Below are positions 31,106-43,592 of a DNA stretch of 64,000 nucleotides, one piece after another (position 1 is the stretch's first letter; each line of letters starts with the position of its first letter). Below the pieces are notes generated by a model. That model saw only the letters and a list, made by a program, of their open reading frames with translations. It had not been told where the DNA came from and did not search any database. The stretch covers positions 124,001 through 188,000 of the forward strand of contig JAJECX010000044.1 in the NCBI GenBank assembly GCA_022821805.1. Reading direction: 5' to 3'. A program made the position numbers and the translations under genes. Source of the stretch: Anaerolineae bacterium (GTDB lineage: Bacteria > Chloroflexota > Anaerolineae > Aggregatilineales > Phototrophicaceae).

Positions 31106-31660
31106 CTAGCGTGGGGCTGGCGCGATTTCGGGGGGCGGAGGCAGCAGCGAAAACGATATGATCAGCAGTATGAGCACAGCAGCAAGGATGACAACGAGCA
31201 GGGCAGCTTGCTTGGAGCGCGTCAGAGCGGGCTCATGCGCGGGCTCTTTAGCCGTATCATAAATCATATCTACCGGGCTTAGGGAAGTTTCGCTCAAACG
31301 CCACAGCTTCAGCTGCGGCTTGCTGCGCTCGAGCGACACGATAAGCTGCAGAATGCCGCTGTCTGCCCATTCGTTCACGTCAGCAGTTGACGGTATCGGC
31401 GCGCTCCTCGGATGCGAATGGTAAACGCCGATAAATTCGAGCTGCGCATCGTCGATCGCTTTCAGCGCCTGCAGCTGCTCATTCGGATCCAGCTTGTATC
31501 GTTTTTCCGCAGCCTGAGCCCCATTCTGCATAGGAAACGCGGCGGCAATGTGATCGCCTGTTCCAGCGAGCAAACCGCAAGCTTCCAACGGTCTCTCATC
31601 AAGCGCATGGTCAGCGATCTGGCGCGCGACCGAATATGGAATAGTAAATGCCATGGTCAT
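31106..31660 (-). CDS. JAMM/MPN metallopeptidase with C-terminal membrane anchor
   Basis: 184 residues. The JAMM site is complete: Glu26 in RPLEACGLL, then H81-x-H83-P and S91-x-x-D94 in GVYHSHPRSAPIPSTAD. A hydrophobic helix (about 151-173, ALLVVILAAVLILLIISFSL) close to the C-terminus makes it tail-anchored, with the peptidase in the cytoplasm. Bacterial JAMM proteins remove C-terminal extensions from sulfur carriers or ubiquitin-like proteins, or cut other substrates. No ubiquitin-like, E1 or CysO-like gene is seen. Its ATG overlaps the upstream stop by 4 nt (ATGA). Confidence 0.88.
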   Translation of the reverse strand: MTMAFTIPYSVARQIADHALDERPLEACGLLAGTGDHIAAAFPMQNGAQAAEKRYKLDPNEQLQALKAIDDAQLEFIGVYHSHPRSAPIPSTADVNEWADSGILQLIVSLERSKPQLKLWRLSETSLSPVDMIYDTAKEPAHEPALTRSKQAALLVVILAAVLILLIISFSLLPPPPEIAPAPR

Positions 31661-32019
31661 CGGTCGTCGGCTGGAATCGCGAATTCAATCTGACACGCAT
31701 CCTGCGCGGGATTGCGCGTCTCATAGTAGAGTTCAGCGGTCAGCCTGTAGTCGCCGGCGGGATTATCGACGCCGCGGATATGCATGGTGAATTCATTGTC
31801 ATAGTGCATTGTGGCGATGACATCCAGGTCGCTCACTTGAAGACCATCGGAACGATGCGCTGTTATCACCAAATTGGGGCGCTCCAGAAAGGGCGTCAGC
31901 TTGAGATTGACTTTGACACGAAATCGATCGGGGTAGGGGGTCACGCGGAAATCTTCGATTTTGACCTTGTGTTTCGGTTGCGGCACGAGGCCCGAGTCGT
32001 TGAACAGGTTGATTTCCAC
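31657..32019 (-). CDS. Beta-rich protein of unknown function, coupled to the JAMM peptidase
   Basis: 120 residues, rich in alternating hydrophobic strands (FRVKVNLKLTPF, NLVITAHRSD, EFTMHIRGV, YRLTAELYYE), suggesting an immunoglobulin-like beta-sandwich. No signal peptide or metal motif; it ends without a Gly-Gly tail. Its stop overlaps the JAMM start by 4 nt, so the two are made together, and the ACT-like gene ends 2 nt upstream. It could be a regulator or substrate of the peptidase. No family recognised. Confidence 0.7.
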   Translation of the reverse strand: MEINLFNDSGLVPQPKHKVKIEDFRVTPYPDRFRVKVNLKLTPFLERPNLVITAHRSDGLQVSDLDVIATMHYDNEFTMHIRGVDNPAGDYRLTAELYYETRNPAQDACQIEFAIPADDR

Positions 32020-32021
32020 GA

Positions 32022-32459
32022 CTATGCGCTCTCCTTTTGCAAGTCGCTCAGTGTGCGCATTGCCTTGTCGAAATCTTCCGCCAGGACAAGCAAATGATCA
32101 CGCGAATAAGCAGCGAAAGCTAAGATGGGGATTTCAACTGCCGCCAGCGCCGCCGCCAGCCGCGCAATCAAACCGACAAGGTCTGGCGCCAGCGCCACGT
32201 CGAGGGTGATTAGACGATAGGCTTGTTCGCTTGCCTCCGCTTGCCGCAGACGCGCGCGAAAGTCGGCTCGCGCCTCGTCCGGCATCAGCAGGGTAACTTC
32301 GTCTTTATCGACAATCAGAGCGCAATACGGTCTTTCGATATCGGCAACGATGCCTGCGGCCAGCGTGATAGCGCTGGGCGGCAGTTTCAGAAGGCGATAA
32401 AGGCGACCGTCGCTATACAGGTTGACGCTGCGCAATACGTCGTCGACAGTCTGAATCAT
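32022..32459 (-). CDS. ACT-like domain protein (CASTOR/aspartokinase-type fold suspected)
   Basis: 145 residues without a catalytic motif. The sequence looks like two beta-alpha-beta ACT-like halves: about 5-65 (GRLYRLLKLPPSA, ...YCALIVDKDEVTLLMP) and 80-140 (YRLITLDVALAPDLVGLIAR, ...IPILAFAAYSRDHLLVL). The LVGLIARLAAALAAVEIPIL segment and the DHLLV strand are typical of amino-acid-sensing ACT domains. Ligand unknown. Neighbours lie 2 nt and 6 nt away, so it belongs to the same operon as the SerK/SbnI-like gene, which would fit serine or another amino acid as a signal (inference). Confidence 0.7.
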   Translation of the reverse strand: MIQTVDDVLRSVNLYSDGRLYRLLKLPPSAITLAAGIVADIERPYCALIVDKDEVTLLMPDEARADFRARLRQAEASEQAYRLITLDVALAPDLVGLIARLAAALAAVEIPILAFAAYSRDHLLVLAEDFDKAMRTLSDLQKESA

Positions 32460-32465
32460 TGAGAA

Positions 32466-33284
32466 TCACTCATCGAATTGATAAGTCGCCTCGGCGTAAT
32501 AGCGGACGCTGCGCTGGGCGTATTGCTTGCGCAGCCACTCTTCAAACTGTTGATTCTTAGTCTTAAGGCGCAAAGTCGAGCGCAAGTCGGCCATGGGATA
32601 ATTGAGATTGAGCGCGCGTCCATGAATGATGTGGCGGCTCACGCCAGGCGGCAAATAAGCCTGCTGGACAGCGGCGTCGATGATATCCTGCGGCTGATAA
32701 TGGGGAAACATTACCAAGGCAACCCCGCTGGGGAACAAGGACCAAATCAGACCCGGGTCGGTCAGGGGCGTGCGATAGAGCGTCGCGTTGACATGATATG
32801 ACTCGACCACCTGCCGAAGAGTGGCGTTGCGTTCCGCCAGGCTGTCGACGACTGCGCTGATGCTGTAGACCGGTCCATCGCGCAGCAAGACCTGTGCCAC
32901 CGCTTTTGAGTCCCAGCCATCATTCACATCAATGTGATCGATGTCTTCCAACATTCGCAGGAATCGCTGCGCATCCCAATCGGCTACGATGTGCTGCCAA
33001 ACGCCGAGATCAACCCATTCCGTTTCGTAGTCGGCGATCTGTACCAATATATGCCGGTAGCCCAAGTTCTGTAAAGAGACGTGGCGGTTCGAGCCGTCCA
33101 TTAACACATACATTTCATCGGTGAACTCGGCAACCACTGGCGGATTGGTGAAGAATTCAGCCCGCTTCAGCCGTTCCATCAAGGGCTGCGATCGCTGGAT
33201 ATCGCCCTTTTCGTGCGGCAATATGTTCTCAACCGGGACGATGCGCAGCTTCGGCGGCGGCACGCTAACCGGATTCGAAATCAT
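32466..33284 (-). CDS. ParB/Srx-fold protein similar to SbnI / free serine kinase SerK
   Basis: 272 residues from the ATG at 33284; an upstream in-frame ATG at 33320 overlaps a TACAAT box and is less likely. The N-terminal ~100 residues match the SbnI/SerK type of ParB-like domain: ILPHEKGDIQRSQPLMERLK, NPPVVAEFTDEMYVLMDGSN, RH and the VQIADYETEWVDL strand. In that group the domain binds nucleotide and phosphorylates free serine (SbnI, SerK), whereas true ParB proteins bind CTP and DNA. The C-terminal ~150 residues are unassigned. First gene of the five-gene block. Confidence 0.75.
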   Translation of the reverse strand: MISNPVSVPPPKLRIVPVENILPHEKGDIQRSQPLMERLKRAEFFTNPPVVAEFTDEMYVLMDGSNRHVSLQNLGYRHILVQIADYETEWVDLGVWQHIVADWDAQRFLRMLEDIDHIDVNDGWDSKAVAQVLLRDGPVYSISAVVDSLAERNATLRQVVESYHVNATLYRTPLTDPGLIWSLFPSGVALVMFPHYQPQDIIDAAVQQAYLPPGVSRHIIHGRALNLNYPMADLRSTLRLKTKNQQFEEWLRKQYAQRSVRYYAEATYQFDE

Positions 33285-33387
33285 CGCAATACCTAGTAGA
33301 ATGGCTCGATATTGTAGCATAGCCTAGCATGAACGGGGCGACAGGGCAATTGCGCTGAAAACGGCACAGTTGATAAGGAGCGAAATA

Positions 33388-35030: not shown

Positions 35031-35059
35031 TTGTGTTGCTAAATAAATTCCAGTATAAT
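35031..35059 (+). promoter_or_regulatory. Predicted promoter of the polytopic membrane gene
   Basis: TTGTGT (35031-35036), 17-nt spacer, consensus TATAAT (35054-35059), 32 bp before the ATG at 35091. Confidence 0.6.
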
Positions 35060-35090
35060 TGCGACTAGCAAACCTCGTTGGAGAATCTTG

Positions 35091-36242
35091 ATGGCAACAA
35101 CCGCAGTCTCGCTTTCAAACGCCGATCTGTACGCCGCCGAAATTGACAAGCGAAACTACTGGCTGCGCAACAGGCGCTGGGATTTATTCTTCATCACGCT
35201 TAGCGTTGTGGTTGTGCCTTTGCCTTATCTCATGTATCTGCTCGGAGTCCATTTGGGGCTCGCGGATGATATCAGCCGCAATCTGGTGAATACCTTCGTG
35301 GCGGTTGCTATCGGCGGTCCGCACATGATGTCCACATTTCTGCGCACGGGCTTGGATGAGCGCTTTAAGGAGCGTTATCCAACTTTGGTCCGCTCGTCGA
35401 TTATCATTCCAGTCCTCGTAATTTCTCTCGCGTTTCTAAACTTGAGCTTAATGCTCACATTCTTTTTCTTCTGGGCGTCACTGCACGTATTGCATCAAGT
35501 GACTTACATTATTGAGCTTTACAATCATAAGGAAGCGAAGTTTGTACGTCGGAGTACGCTGAGCCCTTTATCGCGGATGATCGATTACGCGATCGTGCTG
35601 ACAAGCCTCTTTCCCATCGCAATGTGGAAGATAAGCCAGGGCGCCTTTGAAATCGGGCAGAACGATTTGGGCGAAGCGATACCCGATTTGTTTCAACAGC
35701 CGGATAATCCCTGGTTCTTCATATTGGTTGCCGCCGTGTTTGGGCTCGCGCTACTGTCATACATCGCCAAAAGCATTTTCGAGCTCTATCACGGTGTACT
35801 CAATATGCCGAAATTCGTCTTCATATCTTTGACTGTATTGGTGGCGTTTTTCACGCCGCTCTTGCCGAACCTCGATACCGCCTTCCAGGGGCTGAACACC
35901 TGGCACTCTTTTCAGTACCTGGCCATCACCTTTTACATCATCAAGATTCGGCAGATAGCGGGCGAGCTGGATGCGAACGCGCCGCTGGTCGCTCGTTTCA
36001 GCCGCCGGACAAAAGACGCCCGCGCCCTCTACGGTTTCAGCGCCGCTCTGTTGGTGGGTTCCGCAGTGATCTTTGTGCTGGTTTACCTTCTGGCTGCGGT
36101 CGTGCGCCCCGGCATTGACGGCAACAGCCACTTCGACATCGCCTATTACACTGCGATTCTGTCATTCTTGTGGATACACTATTATCACGATCATTTTCTA
36201 TTCACTGATTTCGAAGCGCTCGATGGCGCCTACGCCAATTAG
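35091..36242 (+). CDS. Polytopic membrane protein with conserved-looking histidine pattern
   Basis: 383 residues from the ATG at 35091 (GGAG 7 nt upstream; the TTG just before it is not the start). About eight membrane helices. Histidines lie in or beside helices: H78 (GGPHMMSTF), H132 and H135 (LHVLHQV), H146 (LYNHK), H272 (NTWHSFQYL), and H363/H366/H368 (IHYYHDHFLF). This arrangement recalls membrane non-heme iron enzymes such as the Brp/Blh carotene-cleaving group and desaturase-like proteins, but I cannot place it in one. It has its own promoter. Confidence 0.75.
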   Translation: MATTAVSLSNADLYAAEIDKRNYWLRNRRWDLFFITLSVVVVPLPYLMYLLGVHLGLADDISRNLVNTFVAVAIGGPHMMSTFLRTGLDERFKERYPTLVRSSIIIPVLVISLAFLNLSLMLTFFFFWASLHVLHQVTYIIELYNHKEAKFVRRSTLSPLSRMIDYAIVLTSLFPIAMWKISQGAFEIGQNDLGEAIPDLFQQPDNPWFFILVAAVFGLALLSYIAKSIFELYHGVLNMPKFVFISLTVLVAFFTPLLPNLDTAFQGLNTWHSFQYLAITFYIIKIRQIAGELDANAPLVARFSRRTKDARALYGFSAALLVGSAVIFVLVYLLAAVVRPGIDGNSHFDIAYYTAILSFLWIHYYHDHFLFTDFEALDGAYAN

Positions 36243-43075: not shown

Positions 43076-43534
43076 TCAGTTGCTGAGTTGATAGCCGCGC
43101 GCGCGCAAGTTTTTCTTCATGTCGCTGACGACTTTGCGTCCGATTCCCTGGATCGACAGAATACTATTCTCGTCGTCCTCATCGCCCAGGCGATCAAGCA
43201 CATCGGAGACGATCATGATGCCATTTTCTTCCAGGATGTTGCTATAACGAGCTCCAATATCGAGTTCCGTGATCGGCAAATCGAGGGGTGTACGCTCGGC
43301 TGCAGCGTCTTCTAGCGCAGTGCGAATCTCGTCGCGCTGCTGCAAGCGCTTCATGAACTTGTCGACGCGCCCCTCGGTATCGACGATGCGCTGCTCACCC
43401 GTGTAGAACGGATGACAGTTCGAGCAGATCTCAACCGTCAGTGATTCGACAGTGGAGCCGGTCGTCCAGGTTGTGCCACAAGACATGCAGCGCACGGGCG
43501 TCTCATGCCAAAAAGGGTGGATGCCTTCTTTCAT
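43076..43534 (-). CDS. rpmE: Ribosomal protein L31 fused to an RNA polymerase alpha-CTD-like domain
   Basis: 152 residues from the ATG at 43534, preceded by a strong GGAGG. Residues 1-68 are a zinc-type L31: [16 protein letters not shown], with C16/C19 and C37/C40 as ligands and the [20 protein letters not shown] signature. Normal L31 stops near residue 70. Here a charged linker leads to about 86-148, which closely follows the helix-hairpin-helix fold of the RNA polymerase alpha C-terminal domain: [32 protein letters not shown], and [20 protein letters not shown]. The tail would project from the ribosome central protuberance. It is co-linear with L27 and L21. Confidence 0.92.
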
Positions 43535-43592
43535 CTTGTCCTCCGCGCATTTGCGGCTCAAACGAGTAGCGCAAATGACTTATGCCGCTAAT

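Follow-up and report, generated by a model that had tools for sequence, protein, structure and literature searches.

Classical membrane desaturases carry three histidine boxes with a set spacing, haem A synthase (CtaA) places histidines on alternate helices in two halves of the protein, and an HYTxD motif is typical of the PAP2/sphingomyelin synthase type. Brp/Blh proteins (PF15461) are β-carotene 15,15'-dioxygenases that make retinal; they are polytopic membrane proteins with conserved histidines in several places, one of them in a G-x-[PA]-H motif. Alanine mutants of Blh at H21, H78, H188, and H192 are reported to have less than 5% activity (PMC9227343), and a paper on giant viruses reports that ChoanoViruses carry genes for retinal (PMC6792449).

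Here, we compare these systems with a protein encoded in a 64,000-nucleotide stretch of an Anaerolineae genome (the window), which had been likened from its sequence to Brp/Blh and desaturase-like enzymes. It belongs to a well-kept, uncharacterized family of polytopic membrane proteins and has four invariant histidines on four separate helices, a likeness to Blh that is one of arrangement only.

Results

The open reading frame (35091-36242, + strand) encodes a 383-aa protein with about ten predicted membrane helices, starting with an ATG at 35091 and running without an internal stop. By sequence comparison this is a real gene, because 33 other genomes in the genus have it as an open frame at 81-96% identity (open homologues in 34/34, source included). 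A GGAG on the same strand, the likely ribosome-binding site, lies 7 bases 5' of the ATG (35080-35083). The original prediction gave the gene a good promoter of its own. A perfect TATAAT (35054-35059, + strand), a possible −10 element, bears this out in part, but the −35 is weak (ttgtgt, 35031-35036, + strand) and a promoter scan of the region accepted no + strand site (one site, on the − strand, against 1.6 expected). The source genome holds a single copy. Upstream in the window lie two short ORFs that match nothing in Pfam; the downstream genes, on one strand or the other, are those for a LysM/M23 protein, a LysM protein, a CoA-ligase (sucC-like), thymidine kinase, an L31 protein, L21, QueA, and RuvB. 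None of the tested neighbors is a pathway partner, so the claim that the gene has no linked pathway holds within the window; elsewhere, three far copies adjoin lipid genes and most do not.

Two other features of the window deserve mention. One ORF (43079-43561, − strand) joins ribosomal protein L31 (residues 10-73) to an RNA polymerase alpha C-terminal-like domain (residues 88-153), an unusual-looking fusion. Four adjacent ORFs (31106-33320, − strand) are kept together in relatives, with homologues in 38-39 of 80 loci; by eye, one has an HSHP motif like that of JAB/MPN metalloproteases and one is ParB-like.

The four-histidine protein was found in 44 of 61 genomes (the source and 60 relatives). 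All 34 genomes of the genus carry one full copy each, with a second weak match in one of them (G010; 53 residues, E = 6 × 10−4), and beyond the genus 10 of 27 genomes carry it at 49-65% identity. A scan of a species-genome collection yielded 152 stretches encoding relatives. Among the best 80 of these 152, the record titles name Anaerolineae, Anaerolineaceae, Chloroflexi, or Chloroflexota, bar four (one each Phototrophicales, Anaerolineales, Pleurocapsa, and Bacteroidetes). In 400 genomes drawn from the phylum there were 7 matches, five of them in another class of Chloroflexota, where 5 of the 29 genomes examined carry the protein. Six far copies, from five genomes, are 36-39% identical to it. 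The family was not found in viral contigs or in plasmids. Searches of Pfam, NCBIfam, PHROGs, and PDB sequences with the protein or its alignment returned nothing usable; the strongest Pfam match was DUF6097, a domain whose function is not known (9/52 members, best E = 0.00089). We found no paper on the family, which has no name to search by.

AlphaFold2, run with 52 sequences, gave a model with a mean pLDDT of 80 and a pTM of 0.77. About ten membrane spans can be read from its helices (residues 30-54, 59-85, 97-116, 118-152, 159-182, 208-233, 239-257, 261-289, 311-338, and 344-370), which agrees with the prediction of a polytopic membrane protein with conserved histidines in helices, as would be required of a metal site. 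The assigned inner loops hold 14 lysines and arginines and the outer loops 1, fitting an N-in/C-in topology. An internal repeat was also considered; profiles of the N- and C-terminal halves align at E = 0.075 only, and we do not claim one. Foldseek found no match in the PDB at E = 0.001 or better, and the best VIA-align Z score, 6.0, was level with unrelated helical rows. The PDB/VIA rows, all with Z ≤ 6.0, include sensory rhodopsin, UbiA homologues, and ABC exporters, which suggests that the model shares common helix arrangements with them. No viral structure model passed E = 0.001. The top viral match by probability was A0A5B8IGR3, an uncharacterized protein of 276 aa from ChoanoV1, with a probability of 0.99 but an E value of 0.054 (TM 0.33/0.42, rmsd 9.2).

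The original prediction listed eight histidines clustered in helices. All eight are at the positions given, inside predicted helices or at their ends, but the full count is 11 histidines (also H54, H234, and H347). To assess conservation, we used 52 sequences chosen at below 90% identity, the window protein included, and a set of 18 rows that includes the six far copies. In the 52 sequences, six of the listed histidines are invariant (H78, H132, H135, H272, H363, and H368), and H366, H146, and H347 are kept in 51, 47, and 34, respectively. Over the 18 rows, only four of the eight are invariant. These are H78 in GGPHMM (35322-35324, + strand; helix 59-85), H132 in LHVLHQ (35484-35486, + strand; helix 118-152), H272 in TWHSFQY (35904-35906, + strand; helix 261-289), and H363 in HYYHDH (36177-36194, + strand; helix 344-370), which the model places on helices 2, 4, 8, and 10. 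The core is thus four histidines on four helices and not eight. H135 (35493-35495, + strand) is kept in 17/18 rows, with Q in one far copy (L117). H366 is lost in six of six far copies (F in five, Q in one) and H368 in two (T in L117 and L118).

Also invariant in the 18 rows are T82, Q136, Q275, Y276, D367, D262, E231, and others; four of these polar residues, T82, Q136, Y276, and D367, stand four positions past a core histidine. Histidines are overrepresented among invariant columns, though by sequence counts this enrichment is modest: 6 of 11 histidines against 103 of 383 columns in the 52 sequences (p = 0.046), and 4 of 11 against 52 of 383 in the 18 rows (p = 0.048). Tryptophan (6/7) and proline (9/15) are at least as conserved in the larger set. 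Because the enrichment is modest and about a quarter of the protein (103/383) is invariant, conservation alone is no proof of a metal site.

To characterize genomic neighborhoods, we took 33 of 49 loci beyond the genus, selected for their length and diversity. Homologues of rplU, rpmE, and tdk are each found upstream, in the same orientation as the gene, in 22/33 loci, with tdk nearest, and the LysM family occurs within approximately 6 kb in 24/33. A locus of the other Chloroflexota class (L200:3210-9957) reads SDR, GTP cyclohydrolase I, RibD_C reductase, SDR, histidine kinase, the four-histidine gene, and MoxR ATPase, and parts of this row recur in three other loci (L196, L197, and L199), so that at least some of it is shared by four genomes. 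Apart from the lipid-linked neighborhoods described next, the genes around the family, including the pterin/folate genes of this other class, are unrelated. Links to lipid genes come from three neighborhoods, chosen after looking. In one genome (G253), the gene is followed by a serine-palmitoyltransferase-like (SPT-like) gene in two ORFs, a glycosyltransferase gene (MGDG_synth), and an epimerase/3beta-HSD gene. In another (G301), the second copy is flanked by a fatty-acid desaturase gene and an SDR gene, on one strand, and a lipid kinase gene is close by. In a third (G042), the next gene is SPT-like and convergent; this neighbor was found apart from a scan of 88 loci, in which an SPT-like gene was nearby in only one locus (L201) and just some of the 12 queries represented the correct ORF. 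The SPT-like gene of G253 spans two overlapping ORFs (L201:9106-10298), perhaps through a frameshift or an assembly error.

SPT-like or related genes are found in 60 of the 61 genomes at E = 1 × 10−60, carriers or not, though none of the 61 scores over the curated cut-off. The best match reaches approximately 437 bits or more in 58/61 genomes, and one carrier (G036) has the weaker homologue alone (387 bits). As SPT-like genes are near-universal in the order, SPT as such does not track the four-histidine protein. The source genome has its SPT-like gene on another contig (G000:C27:18713-19876, L217; 495 bits to NF047600, for which the cut-off is 640). The presence of such a gene in the source and nearly all relatives raises the possibility that these bacteria make sphingolipid-like lipids.

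The haem-copper oxidase subunit COX1 scored over its cut-off in 44/44 carriers and in 11/17 non-carriers. Outside the genus, the counts are 10/10 carriers against 11/17 non-carriers (p = 0.057, not corrected for ancestry). This co-occurrence is compatible with an oxygen-using enzyme without proving one, and may reflect shared ancestry. It also fits what we rank as the main rival explanation, an unlikely one on the whole: a bis-histidine haem protein after the manner of haem A synthase or cytochrome b561, in which H78/H132 and H272/H363 would be two axial pairs in two helix bundles serving electron transfer or haem processing. The placement of histidines on helices 2, 4, 8, and 10, so that each half has two, recalls the alternate helices and two halves of COX15/CtaA (PF02628), and CtaA was not found in 18/34 genomes of the genus, the source included. 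Against this, none of the 52 sequences matches the PF02628 profile at E = 1 or better, the residues beside the histidines are bulky (W, Y, and F) and not small, and the profiles of the two halves align only at the E value of 0.075 given above. CtaA was detected in 32/61 genomes, 25 of which are among the 44 carriers. We thus rejected a simple replacement of CtaA, as both proteins are present in 25/44 carriers. As a separate observation, all 34 genomes of the genus have COX1, including the 18 in which PF02628 was not found, which may reflect assembly gaps or another route to oxidase haem.

Less probable still is a metal-free or zinc-dependent lipid hydrolase or phosphotransferase, with the H-Y-x-x-D of helix 10 acting as in PAP2 or sphingomyelin synthase. 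H363-Y-Y-x-D367 does resemble the HYTxD motif, and SPT-like genes are neighbors in two genomes; however, the family has no PAP2 or ceramidase profile match, and this reading leaves the invariant H78 and H132 unexplained.

A highly diverged di-iron fatty-acid desaturase or hydroxylase of the classical three-box type is more doubtful again. In its favor are the HxxH and HxxHxH clusters and the COX1 co-occurrence. Histidine-rich helices are a feature shared with membrane desaturases and hydroxylases (PF00487 and PF04116), and one relative's copy adjoins a PF00487 gene. Yet none of the 52 members matches FA_desaturase or FA_hydroxylase at E = 1 or better, whereas the same library finds the neighboring desaturase in locus L198 with FA_desaturase (PF00487) at 4.8 × 10−20. 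The three-box spacing is absent as well: where that signature has three boxes and 8 histidines, 4 histidines are invariant over the 18 rows, and H363 is the only one of the HxxHxH cluster among them. A classical desaturase is therefore not supported.

The comparison with Brp/Blh used five Blh sequences, one whose identity PF15461 confirmed and four taken from plasmid records, of which three were annotated as Brp/Blh with an adjoining rhodopsin gene and one was unannotated. PF15461 matched none of the 52 sequences at E = 1 or better and none of the six far copies at E = 10, while real Blh controls scored 1.6 × 10−43, 1.6 × 10−44, 1.5 × 10−41, and 1.6 × 10−21. Profile-profile alignment with hhalign gave probabilities of 0.2% and 0.1% between the two families. 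As controls, splits of the Blh set scored 99.1% and 98.6%, and the four-histidine family, when split, scored 100%. The protein is also longer (383 aa against approximately 257-329 aa in the five Blh). Aligned, the five Blh share invariant H21, H78, H188, and H256; their motifs G-x-[PA]-HGA-x-D, HF, and HxxxH (the last in 4/5) are absent from the four-histidine family, which has GGPHM, HxLHQ, WHSFQY, and HYxxD in their place.

A Blh model built from a single sequence (pLDDT 55) was not good enough to compare folds, and A0A5B8IGR3 was not among the matches listed in its viral search. Three scans for Blh in viral contigs led to one locus; a motif scan of these contigs gave 68 stretches, only one of which was a Blh, on the contig of that locus. 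Searching PF15461 in 151 genomes of the phylum, 251 of the phylum of genome G460, and 2 further entries returned none, which shows little, with the 14 controls silent too.

Phytoene/squalene synthase (PF00494) and rhodopsin (PF01036) were not found in 33/34 genomes of the genus, the source included; these genomes are 83-97% complete. The absence of PF00494 is credible because the same search rang in 7/14 controls and 20/61 genomes; the PF01036 search rang in 0/14 controls but 9/61 genomes. Taken together, these absences make a role in carotene cleavage very unlikely in the genus, and the missing phytoene synthase argues for a substrate other than a carotenoid. The sole exception (G033), with phytoene synthase and two rhodopsins, is 8.5 Mb, about twice the size usual in the genus, and is perhaps a mixed bin. 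Thus, although GGPH resembles the PHGA-D of Blh, the H-x3-Y of WHSFQY resembles H188-x3-H192 (two of the four histidines reported as essential in PMC9227343), and the best viral fold match (E = 0.054) comes from a virus with reported retinal genes (PMC6792449), the missing profile match, the near-zero profile-profile probabilities, and the lack of detected carotenoid and rhodopsin genes make a true Brp/Blh dioxygenase the least credible of the explanations, and we set aside the proposed Brp/Blh pattern.

Discussion

With the carotene dioxygenase and classical desaturase readings disfavored by these tests, and with the gene, its conservation, and its predicted helices in hand, our best guess, a tentative one, is a metal-dependent oxidative enzyme, namely an oxygenase or desaturase that acts on membrane lipids with a non-haem metal. 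Such an enzyme would be a ten-helix inner-membrane protein with both termini inside, judging from the loop charges. H78, H132, H272, and H363, from helices 2, 4, 8, and 10, would meet and coordinate a single metal, probably non-haem iron, and H135, Q136, Y276, and D367, approximately one turn from core histidines, could be second-shell or alternative ligands. The reaction would use oxygen, and the substrate would be a long-chain membrane lipid, perhaps sphingolipid-like, that is desaturated, hydroxylated, or cleaved. By analogy, this working mode would be somewhat like that of Blh, with histidines from several helices around one metal, acting on another substrate.

A more specific proposal, which we hold to be rather unlikely as it stands, is that the protein represents an undescribed family of four-histidine membrane oxygenases that tailor long-chain lipids, sphingolipid-like or otherwise, in aerobic Chloroflexota and have no sequence relationship to Blh, classical desaturases, or carotenoid oxygenases. 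If the protein is a metal enzyme, this unnamed family would join the short list of polytopic membrane metalloenzymes that take their histidines from several helices, and it would offer a handle on the lipid chemistry of little-cultured Chloroflexota.
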